A DNA stretch of 32,917 nucleotides from a virus. A model generated the notes under the pieces. That model saw only the letters and a list, made by a program, of their open reading frames with translations. It was not told where the DNA came from and did not search any database. Numbering within the stretch: the first letter of the stretch is position 1; each line of letters opens with the position of its first letter. The stretch spans positions 1-32,917 of the IMG/VR virus record IMGVR_UViG_3300036828_001637; one strand, 5' to 3'. A program made the position numbers and the translations under genes. Of this stretch, positions 1,958-32,917 are shown one piece after another.

Positions 1958-4396
1958 TTAATCATGCATCATGCTGGCACGGGCTTTGGCGCGCTTGTTG
2001 CGATCATATTTTTCGAGCGCATCCTGTAGCTGGTTCCCGAGCGCGCCGCCCGGTGCGCCGCCCTGCAAGTTAATCTGGTACGTCGGGCTGCTCTGGTCGA
2101 CATAAGTGCGCGGAGCCGGAGCGGTGACCGGGGTATACGCCTGATAGCCACCGGGTGAACGGGTCGCCGGGATATACCCGCCACCTTGACTGACCGGCGG
2201 TGTGTTGGCGGGTGCAGCATCGAGGGAAGTTGATTCCTTTTTTACGAGGCCAAGCTTTTCGAGGATCACATCGAGACCGCCGCGCAGCTTGTTGAAGATG
2301 TTCAGCGGTAACATCAGCGCATCAGCCAGCGCCTGACCGAATACCACCCCGGCATTTTTGCAGCTATCCAGTGTGTCCTGTGTGGCTTTCACCGGCGCAA
2401 TAAGGTCCTTAAACCACTGCCACACGGCGCTGAGCTTCTGCCCGAGACTGTCAAAAACCGGGGCCAGAGGCGCAAACATTTCGCCAACGGGAGAAAAAGC
2501 CGCGATAAGGCCCTGCACCACCCCCGAGAAAAAGGCGCTGATGGGCTCCCAGTATTTACGGATAAGCAATGCCCCGGCGACAACCGCCGCCACAACGGCC
2601 ACAATCGGCCACGTAACCGCTCCGAGCGCGGCAACAATCACTGCCCCTACCGTTGAAAACACCACGCTCATCAGGCCAGCCGCCGCAATAACGGCATTTA
2701 TCCCGGCGATAACCGGCCATGCAATCAGGCCAATGCCGCCCAAAATCCCAATCAGAGCCAGTGCGCCGGTCACGATGTTAAACAGGGTCTTTGTCAGTTC
2801 CGGGTTGGCCTTCGTCCATGCGGCCACAGTACCCAGCCATTCTGTCGCCGAACGGGTCAGTTTTCGCAGGGCCGAATCTTCTTTCTCGAAGACTTCAATT
2901 TGCAGGTCTTCCCACGCCGACTGGAGGTTTTTTAAATCCCCGTCGAGGTTGTCAGTCTGAATTTTTGCGATGAGCTCAGTGGTGCCGGTGGCGTTTTTAA
3001 TCTCGCTACGTTTTTTGTCGAGCGAGCCATCACCGGCAGCGGCGACAAGCTTAATCGCGCCTTTCATAGCCTCTTCACCGAAAATCACCTTGAGGTATTC
3101 GCCGGTTTCAGCGGTACCGAGTTTGTTTTTCACAAACGAGCGATTAATCGATTTGAGGATCTGCTCCACCGGCAGCATGTTGCCTTTGGAATCGCGGGTT
3201 TTAACACCGAGCTCGGCAATCGCTTCAACTGCTTTTCCCATCGGGGCCTGAAGCCGGTTAAAGATGGCGCTTGCGCCGGTACCCGCCATCGAACCTTTAA
3301 TCCCGTTATCCGCCATAATCCCGAGCATCGCGGTCGTATCTTCGATACTGGCCCCTGCCGCCTCAGCCACGGGCGCAACATACTTCATCGCCTCGCCGAG
3401 CTCGATAAGGCCGGTATTGGATGACGTAAACCCTTTTGTCATCACGTCAGCGACACGCTGAATTTCCGTGGTCGGCAGATTAAAAGCCGACTGCATATTC
3501 GTGATGATGTCGGCAGCTTCGGCAATGTCCACATCTGCCGCGAGACTCAGGTTAACCGTGGAACCGGTTGCTGCCAGCACGTCATCCGCTTTGTAGCCTG
3601 AGCGGGCAAGCGTGGTCTGTGTCCGGGCAACGTCACTCGGTGCAAATGCCGTGCTTGCGCCAATATCGCGGGCCTGCTTACGGATCTGCGCCAGCTTATC
3701 ATCCCCTTTTTCCAGACCGAGGATCGCCTGCGTACCGGACATCTGTTTATCAAAACCGATGCCCGGTGCGATAAACCGTGAGGCACCGTACAGACCCGCC
3801 GTCGCGACACCGACCCCGGTCATTCCGGCATTACGCGCACCATTCGCGAGCTGTTGGCCGGACTCATAGCGCGATTTCACGGCCGACAGTTTTGCCTGCT
3901 GCGCACTTACGCGCGCCAGCGCATCGCGCTGACGAGTGAGCTGTGTGGTGGTCTCACTGATGGAGGTTTTAAGACGACGTTCATCACCCGACAGCGTGCG
4001 GGTACTGATGCCCGCCTGCTGTAGCTCGCTGCGCTGGCGCTGTACCGAGACACGCAGATTGTTGTATTTCGTTTGCAGTTCAGACGCAGCCCGCTTCGCC
4101 ACCTCCAGTGCCTGAGCCTGTGCCCGCGTTGGGGTTGTCGTGTTTCTGAACTGCACCGCCAGTGCAGCCGCTTCCTGTTTCGCTTTAGTGAGCGACTGAC
4201 CCGTTACCGCCAGTTGTGCACTGGCCTTGCGAAAACCCTCGATGCGGGATGCCTGACCGTTCAGATCACGTAATGATTTCTGCGTCGAGCGAATATCTCC
4301 CGACAGCGTTTTGCTCGCGGTCTGGATGGATTTAAACGGTCGGGTTGCCTGGTCGACCGCTTTCAGCAGCACTTCGAGTTTAAGGTTATTACTCAT
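1958..4396 (-). CDS. T: gpT, tail tape-measure protein
   Basis: Tail length determinant of 812 aa, close to the P2 gpT length (about 815). The N-terminal third is charged and helical with coiled-coil character. The region around residues 205-400 is the tape-measure core (PhageMin_Tail type). A strongly hydrophobic block at about residues 540-615, rich in Ala/Val/Ile/Gly, is the predicted membrane-active segment of the family. A Pro/Gln-rich stretch precedes the C-terminus. The start ATG at 4396 overlaps the end of the E' frame, the usual arrangement that couples the frameshifted tail chaperone to the tape measure. Confidence 0.96.
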   Translation of the reverse strand: MSNNLKLEVLLKAVDQATRPFKSIQTASKTLSGDIRSTQKSLRDLNGQASRIEGFRKASAQLAVTGQSLTKAKQEAAALAVQFRNTTTPTRAQAQALEVAKRAASELQTKYNNLRVSVQRQRSELQQAGISTRTLSGDERRLKTSISETTTQLTRQRDALARVSAQQAKLSAVKSRYESGQQLANGARNAGMTGVGVATAGLYGASRFIAPGIGFDKQMSGTQAILGLEKGDDKLAQIRKQARDIGASTAFAPSDVARTQTTLARSGYKADDVLAATGSTVNLSLAADVDIAEAADIITNMQSAFNLPTTEIQRVADVMTKGFTSSNTGLIELGEAMKYVAPVAEAAGASIEDTTAMLGIMADNGIKGSMAGTGASAIFNRLQAPMGKAVEAIAELGVKTRDSKGNMLPVEQILKSINRSFVKNKLGTAETGEYLKVIFGEEAMKGAIKLVAAAGDGSLDKKRSEIKNATGTTELIAKIQTDNLDGDLKNLQSAWEDLQIEVFEKEDSALRKLTRSATEWLGTVAAWTKANPELTKTLFNIVTGALALIGILGGIGLIAWPVIAGINAVIAAAGLMSVVFSTVGAVIVAALGAVTWPIVAVVAAVVAGALLIRKYWEPISAFFSGVVQGLIAAFSPVGEMFAPLAPVFDSLGQKLSAVWQWFKDLIAPVKATQDTLDSCKNAGVVFGQALADALMLPLNIFNKLRGGLDVILEKLGLVKKESTSLDAAPANTPPVSQGGGYIPATRSPGGYQAYTPVTAPAPRTYVDQSSPTYQINLQGGAPGGALGNQLQDALEKYDRNKRAKARASMMHD

Positions 4397-4825
4397 TGGT
4401 GTTTCCGCTTCGCTGGAGCGCCTTTTCGCGCCATGTGACGAGCTCGGTGAGACTCATCGGACAGAGCTCTGATGGCCCCCAGTGAAAAATCACTGCAACG
4501 TCGGCCATCAGGTCGTCGACCGTAAAATTTGCCCCGAAATTTAAGCCGCCGAACTCGGCGACAAAAAACCGACCACCTCACCGGCAAAGCTCAGCAGGTC
4601 AGGCAACTCCAGCGCGGCGACTTCCTGCTCGGTCAGTGTCGGCAGGGTCATGCGTGGGAGTACCTTAATCAGGGCATCAACGTCTGAGTTAGCCACCGCC
4701 GCCAGACCGACGCCACGCAGGGTTCCGGCCGTGGGTTTCAGAAGGGTGACTTCTGTGATTTCGGTTTCACCGCGCTGGATGGCTTTTACCAGGGTAATGA
4801 CGTGTGAGTTTTCAACTTTTTTCAT
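4389..4825 (-). CDS. E: gpE+E', tail assembly chaperone made by -1 frameshift
   Basis: Extended form of the tail assembly chaperone. The E frame reads to a slippery heptamer T TTT TTG at 4568-4562, positioned exactly on the X-XXY-YYZ codon boundary (GGT TTT TTG). A -1 slip there continues through an open frame from 4562 to the TAA at 4391-4389. This gives 88 + 57 = 145 residues, against 142 in P2. The E' tail ends with an EKALQRSGNT segment, as in P2 E', and its stop overlaps the T start codon. The arrangement is equivalent to lambda G/GT. The shorter in-frame product is listed separately. Confidence 0.9.
4541..4825 (-). CDS. E: gpE, unshifted tail assembly protein
   Basis: In-frame product of 94 aa (P2 gpE: 91). 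It is a soluble tail assembly chaperone (Phage_P2_GpE type) that cooperates with the frameshifted E+E' form to load the tape measure before tube polymerisation. It starts at MKKVENSHV and ends eight codons after the slippery site at a TAA (4541-4543). It sits between FII (tail tube) and T (tape measure), the conserved position for this chaperone pair. Confidence 0.93.
   Translation of the reverse strand: MKKVENSHVITLVKAIQRGETEITEVTLLKPTAGTLRGVGLAAVANSDVDALIKVLPRMTLPTLTEQEVAALELPDLLSFAGEVVGFLSPSSAA
4562..4568 (-). promoter_or_regulatory. Programmed -1 ribosomal frameshift site of gene E
   Basis: Heptamer T TTT TTG read on the minus strand, in register with the E frame (codons GGT TTT TTG). 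It is the same class of slippery sequence reported for P2 E/E'. After the slip the ribosome reads 57 more sense codons before TAA. Confidence 0.88.
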
Positions 4826-6739: not shown

Positions 6740-7316
6740 ATTCTGGTGTCACTGGCCATGCGATATCCGGTGCCGTGCCGACATCCACCCGATAAAGGAG
6801 GACACGGTATTTTTTCCAGACCAGCAATGCGGCCTCTTCACGCTCATCAGCCATGCCTAAATCAACCGCATCCTGAAGCGGGCCGATGTGCTCATTTGCC
6901 GTCTGAAGCAGTTCAGCCCTTCGCGCTCCGGCCTCATCAATGCTGGCCGCTTTTTCTGCTGCGTCGTCTTTCACCCACTCGCTACCGTTCCAGCGGTCAA
7001 ACGCGGATGCCGGAGACTTTTCCGTTGTGCCTGCCGGTAACGGGCCAGGGTCAGCAATCAGAAGCGCCTGCCCGGTCGCGGTGTCGTACACCACTTTTCC
7101 GCGATGATCCTCGATAAGCAGCCAGCGCTTTTTCTGCTCATCAAAGACGGTGATATTTCCCTCCGTTGTATCGGGCGGTTTAATTTCAGTGCAACAGGCA
7201 GGCAGACCGGTCTGCGGCGGGATATACGCATCTCCCGCGCCGATAAATTCCCGGGTGTCTGCCGCAAAGTTATAAACGGTCAGGGTACGCTCGGTTTTAA
7301 GCATCTTGAAGGTCAT
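6738..7316 (-). CDS. G: gpG-like tail fibre assembly chaperone
   Basis: Tail fibre assembly protein of the Caudo_TAP family, 192 aa. The family helps trimerise or fold the distal tail fibre. The C-terminal half has the typical RWNGSEWVKD motif and the hallmark helical region ending in KKYRVLLYRVD (about residues 167-177). The ATG at 7316 overlaps the H stop (TGATG), so production is coupled to the fibre. It is usually matched to the C-terminus of its own H protein, so the pair is likely to travel together. Confidence 0.93.
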   Translation of the reverse strand: MTFKMLKTERTLTVYNFAADTREFIGAGDAYIPPQTGLPACCTEIKPPDTTEGNITVFDEQKKRWLLIEDHRGKVVYDTATGQALLIADPGPLPAGTTEKSPASAFDRWNGSEWVKDDAAEKAASIDEAGARRAELLQTANEHIGPLQDAVDLGMADEREEAALLVWKKYRVLLYRVDVGTAPDIAWPVTPE

Positions 7317-9154
7317 CAGGCCAGTCTCACAATGTAGTTGAATGCGGTATTTTTAACGGTGGTTTCGGCATTACCGGCGGCAGCAATGCTGATGGTGTGC
7401 GTGTGCGCACCTAGGGCGATAGAGTGCGAGTGTGCGCCAATGCCGACAGTATGGTTATGCGCCCCGATAGTGACTGTGTGGGCATGATTACCCGCCGCGC
7501 CGGTTGTCGCCGTTGGGCTGCCAATGTTTGCGTTATTGGTACTGTCACCACAGGCGAAATTCTTCTGGTTACCACTGCCGTTGTGACCAAAAACCGGCTG
7601 AGTGTGAGCGTGGTTGCCGGTGGTGTTGGTTGTCTTTGTGCCGTAATCGAAGGTGCTGCTGGTTTTAGTGCCATAGTCAAAGGCGCTGGTCGTTTTGGTG
7701 CCGAGGTCGGTGCTCGAGGCGCTGGCCCCATGGGTATGACTCTTAATGCCGTCCTGCTCCTGAGACAGCACGGCGCGACCCGTGGCGGACTTGCCTTTCA
7801 CTGTCTGCCCGCGCATATCAGGGATCACGCCCGACGGATACACCACCCCGAGCAACGGGTAAACGTCTTTGTTGAACGTCTGACCCTGCATAAAGGCATA
7901 GCCCGGTTGTACGACGTCAGACGGCCACGGAACAGGTGCTCCGACCGGGAAAGCATCTTCAGGTGTCCACGGTGTCCAGTCGCCGGTCGCATACTGGCTG
8001 CGCGAATAACTGCGGGAGCTGTTGTACACACGGTATACCTGCGTAACCCCGGCACTTTTGTAGATAAGCAACGCACCTGCACTGTTTTCAGGGTAATGCC
8101 GGGCTGAGGTGGCGTTGGCATTCGCCATCTGACAGTAAACCCCCGGCATTTTCAGTGCATTGAGGTCTTCCGTTGCCAGACCGACAGCCTGCGTATCAAA
8201 AATATCCTGCGGGGTGACACTAACATCGCCCGTCAGCGCTTTACCGTTCACTTTCCGGCTCGTCGGCACGCGCCCGCTGGCATTATCATTCGCGGCCTTC
8301 ACCGCTTTTGGCGTGGCGGCGAATACCTCTGAGGTACTGTCGGTGGCGCTGCTGAGCTGGACGATACCCTTTTGTGTCGTGGTGGCGTCCTGTGCCGAGT
8401 ATTTCCCGCTGGCGAGATCATAGGCGGCCTTGACGGCTTTCGGCGTCGCGGCAAGCTTCTCAGAGGTGCTGTCGGTGGCACTGCTGAGCTGGACAATGCC
8501 TTTTTGCGTGGTGGTCGCGTCCTGAGCCGTGTATTTCCCGTCAGCAAGGTCATATGCCGCCTTCACCGCTTTCGGCGTCGCGGCGAGCGTCTCAGACTCA
8601 CTGTCGGTTGCATTACTGAGCTGAGTAAACCCTTTTTCTTTCAGCGTGGCGTCAGGATGGCGGCGCGATTGTTCATGCTCCGCGATTTTGTCGTCAACGT
8701 AATCCTGCGTGGCCATCACCATTGACGAATCGATGGCAAGCTCAACCGATTCGAGGTCTGACAGAATGATGACCATGCGCAGGGTCTGCGCCCGACCGGA
8801 CCCCTCTTCGAGTTTCGGCTTGTAGCTTTCGGCCATATTGCCGACGGCGACCAGCGTGCCAGTGTCGTCGTAGAGCCCCATTTCACGCAGCCAGAAGCCG
8901 CCCGTCTCCGGCGGGATCACCAGCTCCGCCACCACATAATTTTTATGCTTTTTGTCCTGGCTGATTTTGTTCAGGGCATTGCGCCAGACCTCATTAATCA
9001 GTGTTGTCTGCGCGGCGTTAGGCTCCGGCAGCGTGCCGCCGCCATCCCCGACGGCCATCGTCACGATGTTGACTTTTTTGCCCCCCGGCACCAGTGCGGC
9101 CGCGAATTTTGCTGCCCCGGCCGTGGTGACAACGGTTTTATATTTCACTGTCAT
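7316..9154 (-). CDS. H: gpH, tail fibre (host receptor-binding) protein
   Basis: Tail fibre of 612 aa (P2 gpH: 669). Residues 1-160 are the conserved attachment part that joins the baseplate (phage tail-collar fibre, DUF3751-like). Residues 175-301 hold three tandem 44-residue repeats with a [19 protein letters not shown] core, the third one incomplete. Around residues 380-450 is a tail-collar domain ([10 protein letters not shown] through [11 protein letters not shown]). The tail is rich in Gly/Thr/Ser and His, with several HxH pairs (HAHT, HNHT, HSHS, HTHT) typical of fibres stapled by metal ions. The N-terminus is P2-like and the tip differs, as expected for the host-range determinant. Confidence 0.94.
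8252..8632 (-). repeat. Three tandem 132-bp repeats in the tail fibre gene
   Basis: In-frame repeats of 44 codons each at about 8632-8501, 8500-8369 and 8368-8252 (third shorter and diverging). They encode the [36 protein letters not shown] unit. They form part of the fibre shaft and could change in copy number by recombination. Confidence 0.85.
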
Positions 9155-21350: not shown

Positions 21351-21399
21351 GCGCTGTTATTGACCATTCTGACGATGGAAATTGCAGCGCTCATTTTTT
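21351..21399 (+). terminator. Candidate terminator after Q
   Basis: Inverted repeat GCGCTG (21351-21356) and CAGCGC (21385-21390) with an inner CCAT/ATGG pair, followed by TCA and a run of six Ts. It lies 20 bases after the Q stop and would shield the convergent cargo gene. Confidence 0.45.
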
Positions 21400-22066
21400 A
21401 ATGGTTGCTTTTTATGGCCTGGACCGTATAGCCAAAAGGATACCATGCTGAGTTATCGCTTGCGAAGACTGTCGGGGTTTCATAAATTTTACTGCCATCA
21501 GGAAACTCAGATAGATAGGTATACTGAAGAACATACCCGCGAGGATTATATATCTTCGAGGATTGAGTACCAAACTGAGTGCTTTTAATAGCTTTTCCGA
21601 AAGGGACTCTTACGTTATTTGATAAAGCCGTAAACTGATCTTTATTATACATCGCCTTAAACTCTGGGTGCATACTTTCATAGAGCTCTGCAAATTGCCC
21701 ATTGTTAACCTCACTAAGCATTTTTTCTGCAACCTTTTGTGCATCAGCACTGCTGGGTGGTAGGGGGAATGGGGCGAAAGGATCATCGGATACAAGACCT
21801 GCTGGATTGAAAAAATAGACCACTACGAAGAACCCGGCTGCTCCCGCAGCTTTAATGGTTTTGTTTACGCTGACTTCCAACGCACCAGGCAACATAGCCC
21901 CAAATCCGCCTGCAATCATAGCAAGAACTAATCCGAACACCCGCCATTGCTTTCCTGTTGGATTCGGTATTGCAACGACAAGTATCAACATTATGATTAC
22001 AAAGAAAACTGCGAAAGAAAATAGCAATGTTTTTTCAATGGAAAGCTTTGAAGTTTTTTCAACCAT
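21398..22066 (-). CDS. Membrane protein with DUF4019-like C-terminal domain
   Basis: Cargo gene of 222 aa, low in GC. Three hydrophobic segments in the first 90 residues (about 10-34, 41-66, 70-91) are followed by a Pro-rich linker and a soluble domain (about 107-218). The order of that domain, AQKVAEKMLSEVNNGQFAEL...PFGKAIKSTQFG...YVLQYTYLSEFPDG...YPFGYTVQ, resembles DUF4019-type domains. That is judged by eye and uncertain. The start ATG at 22066 has GAGG six bases upstream. It lies between Q and cos, transcribed toward Q and away from the peptidase gene next to it. Function unknown. Confidence 0.6.
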   Translation of the reverse strand: MVEKTSKLSIEKTLLFSFAVFFVIIMLILVVAIPNPTGKQWRVFGLVLAMIAGGFGAMLPGALEVSVNKTIKAAGAAGFFVVVYFFNPAGLVSDDPFAPFPLPPSSADAQKVAEKMLSEVNNGQFAELYESMHPEFKAMYNKDQFTALSNNVRVPFGKAIKSTQFGTQSSKIYNPRGYVLQYTYLSEFPDGSKIYETPTVFASDNSAWYPFGYTVQAIKSNH

Positions 22067-22301
22067 AACTAACCTCAATCACAGAGTTACGATGGGTAGA
22101 GAAAAAATATATTGTTTAAATGGTTTATAGCATAACCTTACAAAAGCGGCTATCAACATAAGCATGATTATTAGCCAATGCATATTAGTCATAATGTTGT
22201 AATCAAAGACTTTTATATCACCCATATTTACTACACCAATCAGTTTTATTCGAGTAATAATGCTAAAAGAAGGTGTATGGCGACTCTTTAGCAGTGCTTA
22301 A

Positions 22302-22330
22302 TTGATGTATGCAATGTTTAATAATACTTT
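22302..22330 (+). promoter_or_regulatory. Candidate sigma70 promoter of the cysteine peptidase gene
   Basis: TTGATG (22302-22307), 17-base spacer, TACTTT (22325-22330), ending 26 bases before the ATG at 22357. The 290-base gap between the two divergent cargo genes is otherwise AT-rich and shows no other gene. Confidence 0.4.
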
Positions 22331-22356
22331 ATTATCTCATTTTTGACGAGGTTATC

Positions 22357-22986
22357 ATGAATAGGCGTAGTTTTTTAAGCATGTTATTGTGTTTTACTGC
22401 CATGCAGTCTGCTAAATCAGCTGTGATGCCTCTTGGTCCTATGACTCCTCAGGGACAGCCGATGAGAGCTTATGTAGCACATCCAACACGTGTTACTCAA
22501 AGTTGCCCATATTGGTGCTGGGCGGCATCGATTGCAATGATCTTTGAAGCTCATGGATATCACATCGATCAAACCGAAATTGTTAAGAGAAGTTTTAATT
22601 CAAATATTGCCATTTGCACTACAGGTAACACAAATGCCATGGGAAATAATTTAAGCCAACCATGGGTGGACTCTCAGGGGGTAAGCTTTCAGTCTCAAGT
22701 AGTAGCAGCATATGATATTTTCAATAATATTATCGCAATGAATAATATTATTTTAATTAATGAGTTAGCCAGTGATAGGCCTCTTTTATATGCCAATCGA
22801 AGCCATGCTATGGTTGTCGTTTCTGTCGATTATTATATGACGCCAATGGGGCCAGATGTAAGGGCGGTTGGTGTTCTTGACCCTTGGCCTGCTAGCCCAG
22901 GATATCACCTGCTGAATCCTCAAGAAATGGTTCCTGCGCATATGGGAGGGGATATGACTTTCCTTGCTGCGGTGCAGACGACATAA
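22357..22986 (+). CDS. Exported papain-like cysteine peptidase (cargo gene)
   Basis: Protein of 209 aa with an N-terminal export signal and a C39/papain-like fold. The signal NRRSFLSMLLC has a twin-arginine-like RR-x-F-L, then a short hydrophobic stretch and a likely cleavage site after SAKSA (residue 22). Candidate catalytic residues are C54 (CPYWCWAAS, the usual C-W-A-A context), H150 (SHAMVVVSVDY) and D175 (LDPWP). The ATG at 22357 has GAGG upstream; an earlier in-frame ATG at 22309 would spoil the signal peptide. The gene is AT-rich and lies between Q and cos, outside the late operons. The domain is likely right, but substrate and role (periplasmic protease, toxin or lysogenic conversion) are unknown. 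Confidence 0.75.
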   Translation: MNRRSFLSMLLCFTAMQSAKSAVMPLGPMTPQGQPMRAYVAHPTRVTQSCPYWCWAASIAMIFEAHGYHIDQTEIVKRSFNSNIAICTTGNTNAMGNNLSQPWVDSQGVSFQSQVVAAYDIFNNIIAMNNIILINELASDRPLLYANRSHAMVVVSVDYYMTPMGPDVRAVGVLDPWPASPGYHLLNPQEMVPAHMGGDMTFLAAVQTT

Positions 22987-23046: not shown

Positions 23047-23065
23047 ATGCTTTCCCCGCCACGCC
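23047..23065 (-). other. cos site (P2-type cohesive end)
   Basis: On the minus strand the sequence GGCGTGGCGGGGAAAGCAT matches, as I recall it, the 19-base P2 cohesive end (GGCGAGGCGGGGAAAGCAC), and the next bases (TGCGCGCTG) continue the match into the P2 left end. It lies at the P2 location, with Q on one side and the A side on the other, and the orientation is correct: the phage left end runs toward Q. The flanks (about 22987-23193) hold no credible gene and are probably packaging signals. Confidence 0.85.
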
Positions 23066-23193
23066 TGCCCGCTTTATGGGGCGCTTTTAATGCAGTTGCA
23101 CGACCACCGACAGACCGCACCAACACTGGCGGTAGCGCGAGGGGGAAAACTACAAACACGCGTGCAAACTCATGCACCTAATGCATGCATAAG

Positions 23194-24012
23194 TTAATTA
23201 GACTCAAGCTGAATCTTATAATTTGTGAAATCAGCTTTTGCTGTCATTATTTCAATGCCATTTTTTTTGGCGAAATTTTCAATAAAAATTCGCATATCCC
23301 CACCTAGACGCTCTCCGATAATGATGGCATCAATGCAACACGCTTGCAGAGGAACCGCAATACCAGGCTGATGTTCGTAAATATTATCACCTTCGAGATA
23401 ATGCAGACTTCTGACCTCCTCCTCACCAGCCCAGTCAGCGTGCTTAACTAGCGCAAAATCACTAGTCATTGATATCGGTTCTTCACGGGTTATTTCAAGA
23501 AGGTGCTTATAAATATTAATCTTCGGTGCTTCAGGGGTATAAGCTACATCAAGAAGGTCAATATCTGATGCTTTCAACTTTACTTTGTTATACGCAAAGC
23601 ATATCCCTTTCATTCCATTACCATAGTATCCCCACATCAATCTACTATCGTATTTTTTGGTAAAACTCGCAACACCAACATTCTTTTGAAACTCCACAAG
23701 CAAACCACTAGCAAACTTCTCACCCCATACCTCATCGATGCGCTGATAAATCTCGTCAAGCTCGCCTCTATATAACAACCCCCTCAATCTATCTCCACCA
23801 CCTACAATTCTATCCATACGCTCTATTAACGTTAAAATATCAGGCTGTTCAAATTTTTTAAGCGCCTCGACATCAAGCTTATAAAACATATCAAAAGGAT
23901 CATTGAGAAAGCTATTTTTTGAATGCCAAATAGTATTATTAACAAGCTCATTTATTGTATTGATGTTATCCCCTCTGAATCTGAACAAATGAGTTGCACT
24001 TGATAAAATCAT
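23194..24012 (-). CDS. DUF2971-like protein, candidate defence gene
   Basis: Cargo protein of 272 aa. The N-terminal segment HLFRFRG...NNTIWHSKNSFLNDPFDMFYKLD (about residues 7-45) matches the DUF2971 signature (RFR, then NDPFD/E). Later, about residues 135-160, are SRLMWGYYGNGMKGICFAYNK, also typical of the family. The start ATG at 24012 has AAGGGA upstream and seven earlier codons are unlikely. It is AT-rich, and sits beside cos where P2 carries old/tin-type exclusion genes. No enzymatic function can be assigned from the sequence. Confidence 0.7.
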   Translation of the reverse strand: MILSSATHLFRFRGDNINTINELVNNTIWHSKNSFLNDPFDMFYKLDVEALKKFEQPDILTLIERMDRIVGGGDRLRGLLYRGELDEIYQRIDEVWGEKFASGLLVEFQKNVGVASFTKKYDSRLMWGYYGNGMKGICFAYNKVKLKASDIDLLDVAYTPEAPKINIYKHLLEITREEPISMTSDFALVKHADWAGEEEVRSLHYLEGDNIYEHQPGIAVPLQACCIDAIIIGERLGGDMRIFIENFAKKNGIEIMTAKADFTNYKIQLESN

Positions 24013-24119
24013 TATGGTTCCCTTTGTAATCAATCAAAAAAGAAAGACTCTAACGCCTCGCCCGCTCGTTGTTCAACCCCGCCAGTACCGAAAACAAGTT
24101 TCAACACTGGCAGCGTTTC

Positions 24120-24365
24120 TTATGGTCGACGTGGTGGCGGGACTATTGGCCCCCGTGCCGATGGATATTGGGCTTCTTTGGAATTATTGATTCCGTCCAT
24201 CCTGCTGTAATTATCCCTGACGATTTCGGCGCACCCAACAAGCTCGGCAGGCGTCAGATTCTCATTGACCATAATTTGTTGCAGTCACTGAACAATAGCC
24301 ATCAGCCGGAGACTCTTACGCGAGTGCAACGGCGGCACCGGGCGCATAGCTGGTAGTATGTGCAT
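24120..24365 (-). pseudogene. Decayed small gene with in-frame TGA
   Basis: A minus-strand frame of 81 codons starting at the ATG that overlaps the stop of the next upstream remnant (TGATG). It reads MHILPAMRPVPP... and is interrupted by TGA at codon 27 (24287-24285), then stays open through LTPAELVGCAEIV...PPPRRP to TAA at 24122. The coupling and composition suggest a former small phage gene from the A-to-cos end of the genome. Not recognised. An internal ATG after the TGA could still allow a short product. Confidence 0.45.
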
Positions 24366-24541
24366 CAGTCATCACCCCACGCGTCATGCCATGCATCCGC
24401 CACACTGCGACCAGACTCATAATCTTCGCGCCATGCTTCAACATCTGAAGCGCTACTGCCGCGCAGTTCTGCATAATCCATCAATTGCTCATGCTAATCA
24501 TCAAAGCTTGCAGTTCGATTTGTGGAAGCAAAATCAGCCAT
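24365..24541 (-). pseudogene. Decayed small gene with in-frame TAG
   Basis: A minus-strand frame of 58 codons: MADFASTNRTASFDD, TAG at codon 16 (24496-24494), then HEQLMDYAELRGSS...WREDYESGRSVADAWHDAWGDD, ending TGA at 24365. The acidic, Trp-rich tail looks like real coding sequence, and the frame is intact apart from the stop. It starts 12 bases after the remnant gene A stop. It is probably an old early-operon gene left when the cargo site was reloaded. An internal ATG at codon 20 might still be used. Confidence 0.5.
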
Positions 24542-24552
24542 TTCAATCACCT

Positions 24553-24755
24553 TTACATACTTGTAGAGAATCCCAGCCATTCATCAGCGACCGGATAAGA
24601 GAATTTTTGTCCGTCAAATGTCACCGTAGCGCCACGCGCCAGCGCATGAAGCTCCCAGCGCTGCGGCGTGATGCCCTGCTGCGACAGCTCGAAGCGAATG
24701 TGCGGAATTTGCGCCCGTTCGGATTTTGTCATTCGCCCCGATGACGCTATCTGAT
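24553..24755 (-). pseudogene. Remnant of a second gene A 3' end
   Basis: Frame read on the minus strand: RMTKSERAQIPHIRFEL, then SQQGITPQRWELHALARG, then VTFDGQKFSYPVADEWLGFSTSM and stop at 24555-24553. It is the C-terminus of a P2-type gpA. It lines up without gaps with the 3' end of the intact A gene (24576-24755 against 27031-27210), with about 155 of 180 bases identical by eye. Its tail (DEWLGFST) resembles the P2 gpA ending (DEWPGFST) better than the intact gene here does (DEWPVF). The other 680 codons are missing. Confidence 0.85.
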
Positions 24756-24766
24756 GCTACTTACTT

Positions 24767-24809
24767 GCAGGTGAAACAACTATGAGATCACCTAGTTAAT
24801 CTCACCTGC
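24767..24809. repeat. Inverted repeat at the cargo/remnant boundary
   Basis: Arms GCAGGTGA (24767-24774) and TCACCTGC (24802-24809), loop of 27 bases. It lies 12 bases from the end of homology with gene A and 62 bases downstream of the 617-aa gene stop, so it could be that gene's transcription terminator (no T-run seen) or a junction structure. The surrounding 24756-24871 shows nothing else. Confidence 0.4.
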
Positions 24810-24871
24810 TGCCGAGTATCTGCTCTGTGTAAACAGATGCAAATTCATTCAATCTTGTGTTAGTGTCTGAT

Positions 24872-26725
24872 TCAGTCGTATAGCTTAGGTCTGAGTTGGT
24901 CATCCATCAGGTCGTCCCATTTACCTAGCAGAGGTACACAGCACAAGTACAGCATTAAACAACATGAATAAATCGCCGCACTGTCATAGCAAGCATTTGT
25001 ACTCAGATTTCCATGGGCAACTCTGTGCCTTAAAGAAGGCCCAACCTTTTGAAGAAACATCATATCTATTGTTAGGATAATATCTTCAGAAAAAATTTCC
25101 TCAAGATCCTGCCTAGCCTTACTTAAAAGTATTGTTAACGAAGTCGCCTCCTCCAATTCTCTTTCTAATACTCTAGTGGGATCTTTACCACTCAGCTCAT
25201 AAACATGTCTAATAGCACTCTCCATATTCGGTAACAGAAGATAACAAGCACCGATAAAATCCCCTTGGAACAACCGATAAAAACCTAAGCAAAACACGCC
25301 CTTTAACGAATTCGGTACAAAAGGAGTATAATTAATTAATATACCGAATGTATCCAGTGTTAGATGATGTTTCTCACCAATGATTTGGCGAGCAACCTCA
25401 AATATAGTATGAACATAAAACTGATGGTCAATATCGATAAATTTTATTCGGTGCATTATTGCAGCATTATCCTTAAAACAACCATCCGATGATATACCAT
25501 CAGAAACTGCCACTTTCCGTCCTTTTTCATCAACATGCTCAGTACTAAGCATACTGCTAAAAACAAACTTCTTTGAATGAGCAATTGCATCTTCACGAAT
25601 TTTATCAATATTCTCCAAGGGCAAATTTTTTATTACTGCAATGATAATATCGGAAAGAGTCAGATTGACTAAACGGTCATAGTTTTCTTCTCTAGAGTCT
25701 TTAATATCTAAAGGTATAGAGATAGGAGCCAGATGATCTAATGCCTTTACTCTAACTTTACTAAGTTCATCAGTAAGTTGTGAGATAAGCTCGTTCATAC
25801 CCCCAATATTTTTAAGTTCTTGGATAGCCGTTCTTAACCAAGCAGCTTTGAAACCGGGGTCATCGCTACTATCTTTCACTTTTACTGTAAGCATCGCAGC
25901 CGAGATCAAACAACGCTTTGAATCTTCAACACAATTAGCTCGTTTATAGAACCAACTTGCTGTGTAATATAATTTCTTAACTGCTTCAAAATACGTTGTA
26001 GCTGTATGTGAATCAGCTATTTTTTCCGCATTTCGTGCCAATTGTAATACATTATAATTTTTAAAATTCGAAAACATTAAATTGGTTACACTATCAAACC
26101 CCTCAAAAACCCCTCTATCAATTAGAAACAAATATAATTTTTCAAGCTCTATTTTTATTTTTTCATTTCCTTCACTTTTTCTCCCATATACTATTCCCGA
26201 TAAATTTAGCCCACGTTCCATATAGTCATTTAAGAAAATAATATCTGATTTAGAATACACGCCATCATCATAATAAATGGAATGAACTACTTCCTCGCAC
26301 ATTAAAGCATATGATTCTATAGCATTAATAGCATAGACTTTTTCCTTTCTATCATTAATCCATATAATTTCATTAAGCCTTGATGCAATAAATGGGTTAG
26401 TTATCCTCTCGAGCGCTATTTTTAATGTCAAAAGAGCTTCACTTGTAAAATCTTCTGGTAGAAAAGTTCTTTTATCTCCTATGATCATTGATGGCTCGAA
26501 GGAAAGAGGTTGCACCACCCGGCTCAAATGGAATGAAAACGCTAAACTTAGAAGCCTAAAAAATTTAGCAAGTATAATATCATCATCAGAAACCTTGCTT
26601 AACTCATCTCGAAAAATAATATCCATTTCGTAAGTGTGGATATTTTTAATGTTATTTGTTAATTCCTCAATAGGAATCAAATCCATTTGTGGCCGGGTTA
26701 AAGCCAAAGAATCAATGGCGGTCAT
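24872..26725 (-). CDS. 617-aa DUF4209/HEPN-like protein, candidate defence gene
   Basis: Large cytoplasmic cargo protein, mostly helical and very AT-rich. Near the C-terminus R566-HRVA-H571-G lies within the segment SLRHRVAHGNLS, matching the RN-x3-HG motif of DUF4209 and the R-x4-H of HEPN-type RNases (H replaces N here). The preceding helix pair, ESAIRHVYELS...ELEEATSLTILLSKARQDLEEIF, fits the same domain. The N-terminal 500 residues are not recognised, but the arrangement resembles DUF4209 proteins with a helical N-terminal partner. The start has AAGGA eight bases upstream and its own promoter. It is inserted between gene A and a gene A remnant. A nuclease-type abortive-infection role is inferred, not shown. 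Confidence 0.65.
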   Translation of the reverse strand: MTAIDSLALTRPQMDLIPIEELTNNIKNIHTYEMDIIFRDELSKVSDDDIILAKFFRLLSLAFSFHLSRVVQPLSFEPSMIIGDKRTFLPEDFTSEALLTLKIALERITNPFIASRLNEIIWINDRKEKVYAINAIESYALMCEEVVHSIYYDDGVYSKSDIIFLNDYMERGLNLSGIVYGRKSEGNEKIKIELEKLYLFLIDRGVFEGFDSVTNLMFSNFKNYNVLQLARNAEKIADSHTATTYFEAVKKLYYTASWFYKRANCVEDSKRCLISAAMLTVKVKDSSDDPGFKAAWLRTAIQELKNIGGMNELISQLTDELSKVRVKALDHLAPISIPLDIKDSREENYDRLVNLTLSDIIIAVIKNLPLENIDKIREDAIAHSKKFVFSSMLSTEHVDEKGRKVAVSDGISSDGCFKDNAAIMHRIKFIDIDHQFYVHTIFEVARQIIGEKHHLTLDTFGILINYTPFVPNSLKGVFCLGFYRLFQGDFIGACYLLLPNMESAIRHVYELSGKDPTRVLERELEEATSLTILLSKARQDLEEIFSEDIILTIDMMFLQKVGPSLRHRVAHGNLSTNACYDSAAIYSCCLMLYLCCVPLLGKWDDLMDDQLRPKLYD

Positions 26726-26747
26726 TTGTTGAATCCTTTTTAATTAA

Positions 26748-26775
26748 AAATTATGTCATGTGAGAATACAATGAA
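26748..26775 (-). promoter_or_regulatory. Candidate promoter of the 617-aa gene
   Basis: On the minus strand: TTCATT (26775-26770), 16-base spacer, TAATTT (26753-26748), 22 bases before the ATG at 26725. An independent promoter would let the gene be expressed in the lysogen without the early operon. Confidence 0.4.
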
Positions 26776-26872
26776 ACCATAACCAATTTAGTTAGTTACA
26801 CCACAATTATTATAAACTTGTAAAAACACAGCCTTCAATACTTCTAAGATTCGTCCTCGAAAATCAAAACAA

Positions 26873-26890
26873 TTGCTTGCAACAAAGCAA
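26873..26890 (-). terminator. Candidate terminator of the early operon (after A)
   Basis: Stem TTGCTT/AAGCAA with a six-base loop, followed on the minus strand by the T-rich TTGTTTTGATTTT. It lies 130 bases after the A stop and before the promoter of the 617-aa gene. The rest of 26776-27019 is AT-rich with no gene seen. Confidence 0.45.
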
Positions 26891-27019
26891 GAAAAATGAT
26901 TTACATCAAAGACATAGCTTTGCATTTTTGGCTCTACCTACCCATGAACCAAAAATTCCATCAGCCAATATTTCCAACTCGCTGTAGCTATGCAAGATCA
27001 ACAACCTGTTTATTCTTGC

Positions 27020-29290
27020 CTAAAATACCGGCCACTCATCTACAACTGGAAAAGAGTATATTTGCCCATCAAATGTCACCGTGGCGCCACGCGCCAGCGC
27101 CTGAAGCTCCCAGCGCTGCGGCGTGATGCCCTGCTGCGCCAACTCGAAGCGGATGCGCGGAATCTGCGCCCGTTCTGCTTTCGTCATTCGACCTGATGGC
27201 GCAATCTGATATGGCTTTAATGGTTCACCGCTTCTTTGCTGGCGATTTTGCTGCGGCGCGTCATGTTTTAGCGCGCCCCTGAGCGCCGTCACGACTTCGG
27301 GGTCATCCCATGCGATAACGCCGCTATCAACAAGATTTAACACCGCTGCGGCATGCTCAGACGGTGTAGGAGTCATAACCGGAACGTCACCGCCGGTGAA
27401 CTTTCCACAGTTATTGACAGGACTCCGAGGCGCGGTGATACCGCTTTTTAAAGTCAAAGGCTCAACGGCCAAAAGCTTTGGAACAATGCGCCAGTCTGCT
27501 GACCGAGTAACGTGGATATGGTTAGCGCCTATATGCGGGGCGTAAATACCGACAACGCGCTCAATATCTTCTTCGTAGTCGTTGACCTCGTCGGTCACGT
27601 TGCGGGCGACCCTGACGGTCTGGCTGTCACGTGGCACATTCGCCCCACCCTGTGCAGCGATGTATAAATCGAATTCTCCCTCATCGGCAGCAGAGCGAGC
27701 CGCTTCGACTCGCTCATCAAACTCGGAAGCAATACTGACACCGCGAGGCAGTTTTCTCAGTTCGCGGTAAGCGCCCATCGTCGGCAGGCCAATCGGCTTA
27801 AATTGAGGGATGCGCCACGTCGACGCCCACGCTGTTACAGCGGCAGCGGTATCTTGTAGCGTTTTGCCTGTGTCATGATCGAGCTGACCATCAAGGGCGT
27901 AACCGTCGATGTTTTTTGCGATGTACTTTGCGATATAGCCCGCCGCACCACCCTGATTGAGATGCTTCGCCTGAAAGCGCTGTTTCGAAGCGCCCCGCTC
28001 ATCACCGTCCTCTTTCAGGGCGTAGCGACGCATGATTTCGGTAATTTGTTTACGCTGGCCGGGTTTGCAAAATAGCATCATATGCCAGTGGGGCGTGCCA
28101 TCATGATGTGGCTCAACCACCCGCATTCCATAAACCTGTAAATCGTTATCCTTAAATGCCGTACGTATCAGGCTCCAGATATGGCACAGATAACGCTGCG
28201 TATCTTTCGGGGTGTAAGCCTCATCATTCCAGCCATGATTAAGCTGAACGGTTTTTTCTTTGCCTTTTCCAACCTGACGGGTCGGGTGATATTTCGACGG
28301 CGCGGTCAGCGTGATAAACATCCCGACATCGCCCTCACCAGCGGCATAACGCTCGATACCGGCGATGGTATTCATCAACTCCATACGGCGGATCTCGGGG
28401 TTAGAAATACTCCCCATCACCTTACTGATGAGATCGATGCGCTCGCCGGTGACCTTATTTTCGAGCTCACAGGATTTCAGGTATTCAAGGTTAGCCAGAC
28501 GGCGAGAATGTACGTCACGGATGGCACTTTTGCTGGCATACGGTGAGCGGTCTTTGTTCACTTCACCGGCGGCGATGAGTAGCGATTCATGCCAGCGCAT
28601 TCGCTGCGCCTTAAACTGGTTAATCCACCACTCATCATTGATAAGACGCGCCACGGCGGAAAATGCCTGGCGGATCGTCATCTGACCTTTGCGGTATTTC
28701 CTCCAGAAAAGCGGCGTGATGTTGAACGCACGGGCCGCGCCAGCGACCTGACCATAAAGGTGAGCCTGCGCCTCATCGGTAAACAGTGATTCTTTGCCAT
28801 CGTGAGCTTCTGCCCAAGCGTCGCTTAATTCCTCGTACATGATGAAAAACTGTGAGGCGATGCGGGAAGCGAATTTCTTCAGCTCTTTGTCATTCATCCC
28901 CGGCAGTCGGGCGTAATTCTCCCGCTCGGTCAGAAACAGCAGCGAGGCATCCGCATTCATTTCGTTACGCTGATTTACGCGCTCAATGCGCGGCCACAAC
29001 CGGCGCAGAAATGTAGACTTGAGAAAATACAGCCCATGCACCGGGCTTTTATTCCGGCGGATATAGTCATATCGCGAGGTAAAGAGGGAGTTCAGGAAAT
29101 ATGGCAGGTAGTCAATCTTTGATAAAACGCCTTGCACCTGACGCAGTTCGTCACGTGTAAGGGGTCTCTCTCGCCCGATGGCATCGCGGGGAGCATTGAA
29201 GGGATAAGCACCGACAAACGGCTTGCCGGTGCTTTTGGAAAATGGCGGTGGAGGTGTAGGGGCGACGCGCCCCCTTCTTTCAACGGCCAT
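27020..29290 (-). CDS. A: gpA, rolling-circle replication initiator (HUH endonuclease)
   Basis: P2 gpA-like replication protein of 756 aa (P2: 761). It nicks the origin inside A and stays covalently linked to the 5' end, giving rolling-circle replication. Metal-binding HUH motif H401-W-H403 (GTPHWHMMLF) and the paired catalytic tyrosines Y452 and Y456 (GYIAKYIAKN) correspond to Y450 and Y454 of P2. The ATG at 29290 lies within the end of the preceding gene, and the frame upstream of it is not homologous. The last residues (DEWPVF) end earlier than P2's DEWPGFST..., and a P2-like ending survives at 24553-24755. Confidence 0.96.
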   Translation of the reverse strand: MAVERRGRVAPTPPPPFSKSTGKPFVGAYPFNAPRDAIGRERPLTRDELRQVQGVLSKIDYLPYFLNSLFTSRYDYIRRNKSPVHGLYFLKSTFLRRLWPRIERVNQRNEMNADASLLFLTERENYARLPGMNDKELKKFASRIASQFFIMYEELSDAWAEAHDGKESLFTDEAQAHLYGQVAGAARAFNITPLFWRKYRKGQMTIRQAFSAVARLINDEWWINQFKAQRMRWHESLLIAAGEVNKDRSPYASKSAIRDVHSRRLANLEYLKSCELENKVTGERIDLISKVMGSISNPEIRRMELMNTIAGIERYAAGEGDVGMFITLTAPSKYHPTRQVGKGKEKTVQLNHGWNDEAYTPKDTQRYLCHIWSLIRTAFKDNDLQVYGMRVVEPHHDGTPHWHMMLFCKPGQRKQITEIMRRYALKEDGDERGASKQRFQAKHLNQGGAAGYIAKYIAKNIDGYALDGQLDHDTGKTLQDTAAAVTAWASTWRIPQFKPIGLPTMGAYRELRKLPRGVSIASEFDERVEAARSAADEGEFDLYIAAQGGANVPRDSQTVRVARNVTDEVNDYEEDIERVVGIYAPHIGANHIHVTRSADWRIVPKLLAVEPLTLKSGITAPRSPVNNCGKFTGGDVPVMTPTPSEHAAAVLNLVDSGVIAWDDPEVVTALRGALKHDAPQQNRQQRSGEPLKPYQIAPSGRMTKAERAQIPRIRFELAQQGITPQRWELQALARGATVTFDGQIYSFPVVDEWPVF

Positions 29291-29555
29291 TAACGCCAAA
29301 TGCCTCAGCACACGCCTGACCGACTCGCTCAATCTGCGCAGCCAGCTCGGCGAAAGTGCAGGCCTCACCCGTTAAAGCATCATGCAGCATCAGACTCGAA
29401 ACGAGCTGATTCAGCTTCGGGTAATAGCCGACGACATCCAGCCATTCATTACCGGCATTTTTCCCGGTTTTGGCTGTTTTCTTCTCCTGCAAAATAAACT
29501 GAAACGGGTCACTGGTGACGACATAACGGTCACCAATCTCGATACGAATGCTCAT
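29280..29555 (-). CDS. Small early-operon protein
   Basis: 91-aa protein (MSIRIEIGDRYVVTSDPFQFILQEKK...) between the zinc-finger gene and A. The N-terminal IGDRYVVTSD-QF-FILQEKK and YYPKLNQLVSSL pattern is found in the small genes upstream of A in P2 relatives, perhaps DUF5405, but this is from memory and not firm. It overlaps A by 11 bases and its ATG overlaps the stop of the preceding gene. No enzymatic motif is seen. Confidence 0.7.
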   Translation of the reverse strand: MSIRIEIGDRYVVTSDPFQFILQEKKTAKTGKNAGNEWLDVVGYYPKLNQLVSSLMLHDALTGEACTFAELAAQIERVGQACAEAFGVNGR

Positions 29556-30867: not shown

Positions 30868-31034
30868 TTGCAAAACCTCCGGGCTTTTAGGGAAGCGAGC
30901 GCTGTGCTGATTACGCCCGGCTTACGGGTACGGATAATGATGCCTTTTCGACCGCGACCGTGAGTGATGGTGAAGTTAATCGGGGCCGGGCTTTGGTTAC
31001 GTAAAAGTTGAGCAATGCAACGTGGTTCTTTCAT
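30858..31034 (-). CDS. Small early protein (P2 orf78 position; Fil-like)
   Basis: 58-aa basic protein, MKEPRCIAQLLRNQSPAPINFTITHGRGRKG..., between cox and B. The start has AAGGAG seven bases upstream and the end overlaps B by ten bases. The AQLLRN-SP and ITHGRG pattern resembles the DUF2724/Fil small proteins at this position in P2-like phages, but similarity is short. In phage 186 Fil causes host filamentation; a similar role here is a guess. Confidence 0.6.
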   Translation of the reverse strand: MKEPRCIAQLLRNQSPAPINFTITHGRGRKGIIIRTRKPGVISTALASLKARRFCKWL

Positions 31035-31045
31035 GGCAAAACTCC

Positions 31046-31405
31046 TTATGCAGCCGCACGGCCGCGACCGGATTTTCCGTAACTGATGCGGTTCTTCCAG
31101 TCGTGCCATTCTGTCGGGGCTTCCTCGACCAGTTGGGCGGCATATTTATCCCACTCACGACGGTTTACCCAAAGCTCAGCCTTGCCACCCGGTTTCAGCG
31201 GGTCTGTCATGTAGAACGCCGGTAGTTTTCCAGCCTTTGCCATCTCAACAACAGCACGGGCGGTTTTGCCGATATAAAGCGCAAAACCCTCCTTAGAAAG
31301 CAGGTCTGCTGGAGCTGGTGACAACTTAATCGTAGGTAATGGACTATTTACCGACTCAGAAATTTTATCTGTAATAACGTTAGAAATTTCAGATCCCGTA
31401 CTCAT
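31046..31405 (-). CDS. cox: Cox-like regulator (excisionase and repressor of lysogeny)
   Basis: 119-aa DNA-binding protein with a winged-helix core, ALYIGKTARAVVEMAKAGKLPAFYMTDP (about residues 43-70), closely like the P2 Cox core (FAKLIGKSTGAVRRMIDKGKLPVIDMTDP). Cox represses the C promoter and acts as excisionase with Int. The protein is longer than P2 Cox (91 aa), with an extra acidic N-terminal segment and a basic GRGRAAA tail. First gene of the early operon, divergent from C. Start has GGAG eight bases upstream. Confidence 0.88.
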   Translation of the reverse strand: MSTGSEISNVITDKISESVNSPLPTIKLSPAPADLLSKEGFALYIGKTARAVVEMAKAGKLPAFYMTDPLKPGGKAELWVNRREWDKYAAQLVEEAPTEWHDWKNRISYGKSGRGRAAA

Positions 31406-31510
31406 TTGCTATTCTCCACATTGATATAGCGCTAACTGAAGCTAGTTCGAGTCAATTGGCGGTGTAGATAACCAATCAACTAACGTAAAGATTACGGAGT
31501 TACGTATTTT
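31406..31510. promoter_or_regulatory. Lysis-lysogeny switch: divergent Pe/Pc operator region
   Basis: 105 bases between cox (minus) and C (plus). An inverted repeat ATTGG (31455-31459) / CCAAT (31472-31476) and a second one, AACT (31434-31437) / AGTT (31444-31447), are candidate repressor or Cox sites. TTGACT on the minus strand near 31458-31453 could be the Pe -35, but its spacing to TATATC is too long (21), so I cannot fix the promoter elements. Confidence 0.65.
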
Positions 31511-31810
31511 ATGTCAATACAAGTAGCGGAGAAACTAAAGCTTATCCGCGAGTCTGAAAGGCTCAAAATGAAGGAACTAACTGAAATTACAGGAATAAAC
31601 TACACGACCTATGCAGGTTATGAGCAGGGCAAGGCCAGAATGTCGCTTGAAAATGTCCAAAAACTCTTTAAACCAGCGCGTTTTCGCAAGTATCGCGATT
31701 GGTTCATGTTTGATGAGATAGACCCTTCTACCGGGCAGATTGCACCGGCACTCGCACACTTTGGGCCAGGAAGCGAAACCTCTTCCCCCTCCGACCAAAA
31801 GACTGGCTAA
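31511..31810 (+). CDS. C: C repressor of lysogeny
   Basis: 99 aa, the same length as the P2 C protein. An N-terminal HTH (KMKELTEITGINYTTYAGYEQGK, about residues 20-42) is followed by the conserved tail TGQIAPALAHFG...SDQKTG, close to P2. The HTH residues differ from P2, so immunity is likely distinct (heteroimmune). GGAG is eleven bases before the ATG. It faces cox and is transcribed toward int, as in P2. Confidence 0.93.
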   Translation: MSIQVAEKLKLIRESERLKMKELTEITGINYTTYAGYEQGKARMSLENVQKLFKPARFRKYRDWFMFDEIDPSTGQIAPALAHFGPGSETSSPSDQKTG

Positions 31811-31906
31811 CGATCTACGGGGCTTACCTGTGCAACAAATGTTCTAAAGAAGATTGTTATGTAAACACGCGTGAAAGAGTACCTAGCCATACCATCGAGG
31901 TGACCT

Positions 31907-32917
31907 ATGTCCGTTAAAAAACTCGATGATGGCCGATATGAAGTGGACGTAAGACCGCAGGGCGCAGACGGAAAACGCATCCGGCGGAAATTCAGTACAA
32001 AGGGCGAGGCTCAGACATTTGAGCGTCATGTGCTCGTTAACTATCACAATAAGGAATGGCTTGAGAAACCGGCTGACCGGCGCAAGCTGACAGAACTGCT
32101 GGAACGATGGTGGATTTATCACGGAAAATCCCACACAAGGGGCGAGATAGAAAAGGGTCGCCTGACGACGATAATCGTAAAATTTGGGGCGATGGGTGTA
32201 CACAGAGCCGACCAACTGACCAAAAAGTCAATCATCGATTATCGCGTAACCCTAATGAATGAAGGACTCAAGCCATCCAGTGTAAACAGACATATCGCCA
32301 TACTGAGCGGCATGTTTACTAAACTTATTGATGCTGACGAGTATCACGGCACCAACCCTCTTCATGAGGTGAAGCGCCTGAAAGAAGCGCAGGCAGAGAT
32401 GGCTTTCTTATCGAACGAGGAAATAGAGAGTTTACTCGGTCGGCTTGAAGGAGATGAGCTGAATGTTGCGCTTATCTGCCTTGCGACCGGTGGTCGTTGG
32501 GGTGAGGTATCTGGCCTTAAGGCTGAACACATCATTCAACAGGTGGTGACATTCATGAAAACGAAAAACGGGAAAAGACGCTCCGTGCCAATTTCCGTCG
32601 AGCTGACCGAGCGCATTAAGCGTAAAAACTCCGGCCTGCTGTTTAAAGCAAAGTACAGCACCGTGCGCAGAGTGCTAAAAGAAATCAAGCCAGACCTGCC
32701 AGATGGGCAGGCCGTTCACGTGATGAGGCACACATTCGCCACACACTTTATAATGAATGGAGGTAATATAATCACATTACAGCGCATTCTCGGGCACTCG
32801 AATATCCAGCAAACGATGATTTACGCGCATTTTGCCCCGGACTTTTTACAGGACGCAGTAGCACTCAATCCGCTGTCCAAAGTGTCCATAATGTGTCCAC
32901 AAACCAAAGTTAACTAG
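31907..32917 (+). CDS. int: Integrase (tyrosine recombinase)
   Basis: P2 Int-like tyrosine recombinase, 336 aa (P2: 337). All catalytic residues are present: R197 (TGGRWGEV), K220 or nearby, H271-x-x-R274 (HVMRHTFATHF), H297 (GHSNIQQT) and the nucleophile Y306 (MIYAHFAP). N-terminal residues 1-60 are the arm-binding domain and about 60-160 the core-binding domain. The start has GAGGTGA upstream. It is likely co-transcribed with C. It ends at the last base of the window, so the att site next to it is not visible. Confidence 0.96.
   Translation: MSVKKLDDGRYEVDVRPQGADGKRIRRKFSTKGEAQTFERHVLVNYHNKEWLEKPADRRKLTELLERWWIYHGKSHTRGEIEKGRLTTIIVKFGAMGVHRADQLTKKSIIDYRVTLMNEGLKPSSVNRHIAILSGMFTKLIDADEYHGTNPLHEVKRLKEAQAEMAFLSNEEIESLLGRLEGDELNVALICLATGGRWGEVSGLKAEHIIQQVVTFMKTKNGKRRSVPISVELTERIKRKNSGLLFKAKYSTVRRVLKEIKPDLPDGQAVHVMRHTFATHFIMNGGNIITLQRILGHSNIQQTMIYAHFAPDFLQDAVALNPLSKVSIMCPQTKVN

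Follow-up and report, generated by a model that had tools for sequence, protein, structure and literature searches.

Gene content of the A-Q interval

P2-like phages are a well-studied reservoir of anti-phage genes. The window, by which we mean the whole stretch of DNA analysed (32,917 bases), is a viral record of one such phage in which, read along gene A, the replication endonuclease gene is followed by a 294-nt leader, a gene for a 617-aa protein, ~105 nt with a hairpin, and a second, partial gene A 3' end (hereafter the remnant), and then by a 500-nt segment, a DUF2971 gene, cos, two ORFs, and the Q side (Table 1). Variable genes lie between gpA and gpQ and adjoin cos, in the same order as in the related IMG/VR locus L003, which is the layout of the P2-like gpA-gpQ defence hotspot (the old/tin locus) described by Rousset et al. 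2022 (PMC9122126); the window shares with that hotspot both the locus (A to Q, beside cos) and the kind of cargo. The GTG start of gene A, at 29368, may be placed too far upstream.

Table 1 Features of the gene A to Q interval of the window, with the second A 3' end of another P2-like lineage in the last row
Feature	Position	Strand	Basis or remark
Gene A (gpA, replication endonuclease)	27020-29368	-	PF05840; identity profile, max-chi2 test
P2-type origin block, nick between 27426 and 27425	27401-27435	-	P2 RefSeq rep_origin 29892, alignment, invariance
Intact A 3' end plus 22 nt past the stop, putative incoming repeat copy	26998-27222	-	Repeat alignment
Cargo leader, no relatives among the loci compared	26726-27019	-	Terminator-like 26891-26876, promoter-like 26838-26809
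617-aa cargo gene, DUF7380 + DUF4209 (HEPN), PADLOC candidate PDC-S39	24872-26725	-	Profile matches
Stretch between cargo stop and remnant, no relatives	24768-24871	-	Strong hairpin ~24770-24812
Remnant, putative fossil of the resident gene A 3' end (P2-type ending)	24553-24767	-	Collinear with L003 6666-6877
Segment directly after A in L003 and E. coli 600029	24050-24552	-	Similarity to both
Second cargo gene, DUF2971, PADLOC candidate PDC-S31	23194-24033	-	Slot holding other ORFs in L003
cos	23047-23065	-	P2 cosR with 2 mismatches; far boundary of exchange block
C39-type peptidase-like ORF	22309-22986	+	cos-Q variable spot
DUF4019 ORF	21398-22078	-	cos-Q variable spot
Second A 3' end in another lineage	L119 ~6790-7100; L120 from ~6445		Decayed old A tail

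The 617-aa protein combines an N-terminal DUF7380 with a C-terminal DUF4209 domain, the match to PF13910 (DUF4209) lying barely over the cut-off (23.5 vs 22.3 bits). DUF4209 is counted among the HEPN families (PMC3710099), and the R-x4-6-H motif is present as R566-x4-H571, which is invariant across 9 aligned sequences. An AlphaFold model of the protein has an all-helical C-terminal part at low confidence (pTM 0.48), and its comparison with the PDB returned generic helical repeats and no meaningful match. The PADLOC profiles PDC-S39 (DUF4209) and PDC-S31 (DUF2971), which are candidate defence systems by database label only, match the two cargo proteins of the window strongly. Judging from these families, the 617-aa gene most likely encodes a HEPN-RNase and would be a defence gene of the abortive-infection type. 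The preliminary description had assigned to it a promoter and an early terminator; similar sites are indeed present in the leader, but they are no commoner in this region than in shuffled sequence, so that this part of the description does not rise above chance expectation. Directly after the gene, the hairpin at 24770-24812 (z -2.6 for the stretch) has no T run.

Relatives of the 617-aa protein of P2 type, detected only when an alignment was used as the query, are 33-42% identical to it. They comprise proteins of 13 IMG/VR P2-like loci, the DUF4209 protein of phage 569R9 (41%), ORF612 of P2-EC46 (35%), and a protein of a Salmonella plasmid that also carries P2-like genes; with respect to all of them the window gene is a separate branch. 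Single-protein scans yielded no relatives in viral or genome contigs, the same alignment query yielded none in genome contigs, and the insert DNA had none among the E. coli genomes, distant mode included. The 617-type gene occurs in 15 of the 164 distinct hotspots, the window included. Where its flanks are available it lies behind gene A with a single match to the gpA end (L050, L077, L084, L086, and the L087-L099 set), an arrangement anticipated in the preliminary description. Likewise, in 569R9 the DUF4209 gene directly follows gene A and only one A end is present, whereas the window has two.

DUF2971 genes are found in only three of the 164 hotspots, each time together with a DUF4209 gene (in the window, in L050 at 7818-8729, and in L097 at 3704-4612). 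The hypergeometric probability of this association is 6e-4, or 0.008 when L050 and L097 are counted as one. The two genes, which possibly constitute a two-gene system, are adjacent in L050 and L097 and are split by the remnant in the window.

Two gene A 3' ends and their single-ended relatives

The duplicated gene A end consists of a direct repeat (24543-24755 and 26998-27210) that aligns without gaps over 213 nt with 177 identities (83%), whereas the best gapless match among 21 shuffled sequences reached 79/213. Over the last ~60 gpA codons (24576-24755 and 27031-27210), colinear and ungapped as first described, 156 of 180 nt are identical (87%, against ~86% estimated by eye). The two copies are thus confirmed to be real and well beyond the matches obtained with shuffled sequence. 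Homology begins in the remnant at ~24767, at the gpA codons QIA(P/S)SGRMTK, and extends ~22 nt beyond the stop of the intact gene. Both copies lie on the same strand, the old gene end being kept downstream of the new one, and they end differently: the remnant has the P2-type ending VADEWLGFSTSM and the intact gene ends with VVDEWPVF, i.e. three residues after DEW, both as noted at the outset.

Two gap-free copies in direct orientation would also be expected if the phage had duplicated its own A end in tandem and the 617-aa gene had later entered between the copies, and one pair of P2-like loci, L119 and L120, does have two A ends with no cargo between them. However, the copies in the window are different alleles, since the remnant is 90-91% identical to the A ends of L012 and L018 but 84% to the intact copy, and their endings differ; moreover, near the window no relative has two A ends without cargo. 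We consider such a duplication very unlikely.

The condition of the remnant bears on another reading, to which we give slightly less credit still, namely that it is a separate functional small gene producing the A tail domain. Its ORF is open from an in-frame ATG (59 aa, 24553-24732), as this reading would require, but an in-frame stop lies just upstream, the neighbouring small ORF is also interrupted, and no comparable second copy exists in relatives beyond the decayed one of L119 and L120. A substitution-pattern test for relaxed selection on the remnant gave no clear signal either way.

Relatives with a single A end and no insert, which the preliminary description had foreseen, were found. 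L003 is ~96% identical to the window in gene A upstream of 27401, and its single A end (VADEWPGFSTSM) runs directly into a match to 24050-24552 (88%), after which similarity is interrupted at the DUF2971 slot and picks up again at 23190, extending past cos to the Q side. E. coli 600029 has the empty arrangement too, its A gene being followed by two small annotated ORFs. A single place covering at least 80% of 24034-24770 is present in 64 E. coli genomes, and the matches listed for this stretch are annotated as replication endonuclease.

A second A end, sought in each locus with its own gpA end and with the remnant, was present in none of 83 relatives. Among ~170 non-redundant P2-like loci there is one other lineage with two A ends, that of L119 and L120 (the same loci as L239 and L213), in which a second A tail, decayed and starting ~115 nt past the nick position of the replication origin, comes immediately after a complete A. 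Displacement of an A tail therefore seems to have left a trace at least twice. These cargo-free loci are the only ones of the ~170 in which two A ends occur without the 617-aa gene, a combination that, as a feature of the window's relatives, would have spoken against the origin of the remnant first proposed. Two further loci were rejected as carriers of a second A end, L229 having a frameshift within the gene and L092 a broken A reading frame. In L025 and L027, gpA lacks its last ~65 residues and unrelated sequence begins ~192-197 nt past the nick, near the point (~203 nt) at which the remnant of the window starts; the gpA tail thus appears to be dispensable.

Allele switch in gene A and the proposed exchange

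In pairwise alignments of the A genes, the 5' part of the window's gene A is similar to that of L003 and L002, and the portion 3' of ~27401 belongs to another allele class. Compared with L003 and L018, the window is L003-like at 373 of 408 informative sites and then L018-like at 27 of 35, and the max-chi2 test places the switch at 27436-27393, with none of 2000 permutations as strong; with L002 and L018 as references the interval is 27436-27383. The nick of the P2 origin, whose position was taken from the P2 RefSeq feature table (29892, inside gene A) and aligned to 27426/27425, falls within the interval 27436-27393. The origin block is invariant in 24 divergent representatives, and no other invariant block in the compared part of gene A exceeds 14 nt. 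The A tails of L002 and L003 differ from each other, so that either of them may have swapped its own tail and the crossover of the window event is not fixed by these comparisons. In L087, gene A departs from the sequence of its relatives no more than ~22 nt from the nick, immediately past the origin block.

We consider it likely that the A-to-cos site of this phage was reloaded from another P2-like phage by homologous exchange on the A side and an illegitimate joint on the far side, leaving the remnant behind. Incoming P2-like DNA would have extended from gene A across the 617-aa gene. Homologous exchange on the A side would have taken place most likely at the origin block or a little 3' of it, so that the phage would have kept the catalytic part of its own gpA and gained a new C-terminal tail. 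On the far side, where the sequence flanking ~24767 toward the cargo is unrelated, the incoming DNA would have met the resident A at a joint lacking extended homology, which in resident coordinates is ~203 nt beyond the nick, and the last 65-70 codons of the old A would have been left behind, still joined to the former post-A sequence. Alternatively, a cointegrate formed by one crossover in A and followed by a deletion would give the same product in two steps. The first small ORF of the segment that follows the remnant is broken by an in-frame stop in the window, as might be expected if its expression was lost when the cassette arrived. The preliminary description had proposed recombination through gene A that left the old 3' end behind; this idea is supported, except that only the A side looks homologous whereas the far joint would be illegitimate, and it can now be refined by mapping the A-side exchange onto the replication origin.

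An event of this type would most likely be a C-terminal displacement by homology-facilitated illegitimate recombination (HFIR), a process reported in E. coli (PMC3240628), the allele switch providing its one homologous joint. As outlined in PMC5361080, which cites Jackson et al. 2009 and Kirchberger et al. 2017, rhs and T6SS effector loci also undergo C-terminal displacement with orphan 3' ends: an incoming module replaces the 3' end of a gene and the old end is kept downstream, which is explained there by HFIR. As in rhs-type cases, relatives exist that have the old end in its original place, here L003 and E. coli 600029. In the rhs and T6SS loci, again following that outline, what is exchanged is the tip of a toxin, and the part left in place can still serve a purpose (immunity), whereas in the window the end concerned is the tail of a replication protein and has no evident use.

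Some observations count against the reloading model, namely that the donor was not found in the scans, that the remnant ORF is still open, and that the DUF2971 gene, which elsewhere adjoins DUF4209, sits beyond the remnant. The last of these could reflect a reverse order of events, in which an L003-like piece of ~717 bp (the remnant plus the segment) was inserted between the DUF4209 and DUF2971 genes of one cargo unit that also included the A tail, as the constant company of DUF2971 with DUF4209 and the adjacency of the two genes in L050 and L097 would suggest. That piece, however, would need two non-homologous joints; both flanks of the DUF2971 gene resemble L003, to within 125 nt of cos, as though this gene had entered such a context independently; and the two proteins are just 31-36% identical to the L050 pair. 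We regard the reverse order as improbable and, because both its flanks are L003-like, prefer to see the DUF2971 gene as already resident when the site was reloaded.

Gene A tails and cargo across P2-like phages

The linkage between A tail and cargo extends well beyond the window. For pairs of loci with an A-body identity of 97% or more, mean identity over the final 93 nt of A is 91% when the cargo is the same (n=77) and 56% when the cargo is different (n=738), and none of 2000 label permutations reaches the overall difference. Breakpoints were surveyed in pairs selected for their identity at 1.6-2.6 kb upstream of the nick and by no other criterion. Of 88 significant breakpoints, which in related phages are not fully independent events, 84 fall on the 3' side of the nick; 21 are no more than 40 nt away from it, another group lies near the stop of A, and the interval from -400 to 0 is empty. 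When each distinct combination of tail and body clade is counted once, the 173 non-redundant loci yield 20 distinct tail swaps, nine of them at +23 to +27 (a breakpoint anywhere in the invariant block being reported at the block's 3' edge), 10 at +63 to +183, and one upstream. The clades used for this count need 95% identity over 1480 nt upstream, so that only about the last 370 nt before the nick are open to breakpoints; the binomial chance of at least nine events in 45 nt is 2e-6 over the 670 accessible nt and 1e-3 for the 3' side only. On the far side, 103 pairs combine a near-identical A with different cargo, and in every one of them identity returns before cos, at a median distance of 36 nt. 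The breakpoints and this return of identity together indicate that the exchanged blocks are bounded on one side by the origin block or the A tail and on the other by cos. In its clean form, a block from the 3' part of A to cos, such exchange appears, from the genomes compared, to be the usual route by which P2-like phages trade cargo, and the initial suggestion that the swap is anchored by homology in gene A is borne out across P2-like loci more generally.

The concentration of breakpoints at the origin has, on balance, a probable explanation in sequence identity: the block would be the longest perfect identity between divergent A genes, used by ordinary RecA- or phage-dependent recombination in which the nick plays no role. 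At the origin, every one of the 276 pairs formed from divergent representatives has 25 or more identical nt in common, and about one third do so elsewhere in the part compared. In E. coli, efficient recombination requires at least about this length of identity. Shared identity may likewise account for the boundary at cos. Nevertheless, hardly any breakpoints lie upstream of the nick, although similar lengths of identity are available there in one third of the pairs. In a more tentative and less likely idea, the cargo block would be delimited by two programmed cleavage sites (the gpA nick at the origin and the terminase cut at cos), exchange would start from the nick or from cleaving and joining by gpA, and the far end of the fossil in the window would have missed cos.

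For the hotspot as a whole, cos ends together with homologous recombination have been suggested as the basis of exchange, with a call for further work, and the way in which cargo is exchanged at such rates was left open (PMC9122126). The window differs from the hotspot described there in the second A 3' end left in place and in an A-side boundary at or 3' of the origin nick, and in the literature searched we found no earlier report of an origin-side boundary or of a role of the origin in cargo exchange. The fossil, one exchange caught incomplete, is a rare leftover from a type of event already known. More valuable is the rule drawn from the relatives, namely that cargo travels together with the 3' portion of gene A, in the interval from the origin block to cos, which is testable with P2 and can be used to predict joints in other genomes.

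Other variable positions occur around this interval. L003 carries at 3580-4587, between orf83 and gene A, an extra ORF of 335 aa that by eye is sulfotransfer (PAPS reductase)-like; the 5' end of A may be another point of entry for cargo. Between cos and Q, positions 21398-22986 of the window form a further variable spot, both ORFs of which are common to L003. At the other end of the window, similarity to L002 and L003 falls at ~31033, ahead of the repressor and integrase genes, and ~31034-32917 is best read as a separate module change in the immunity and integration region.
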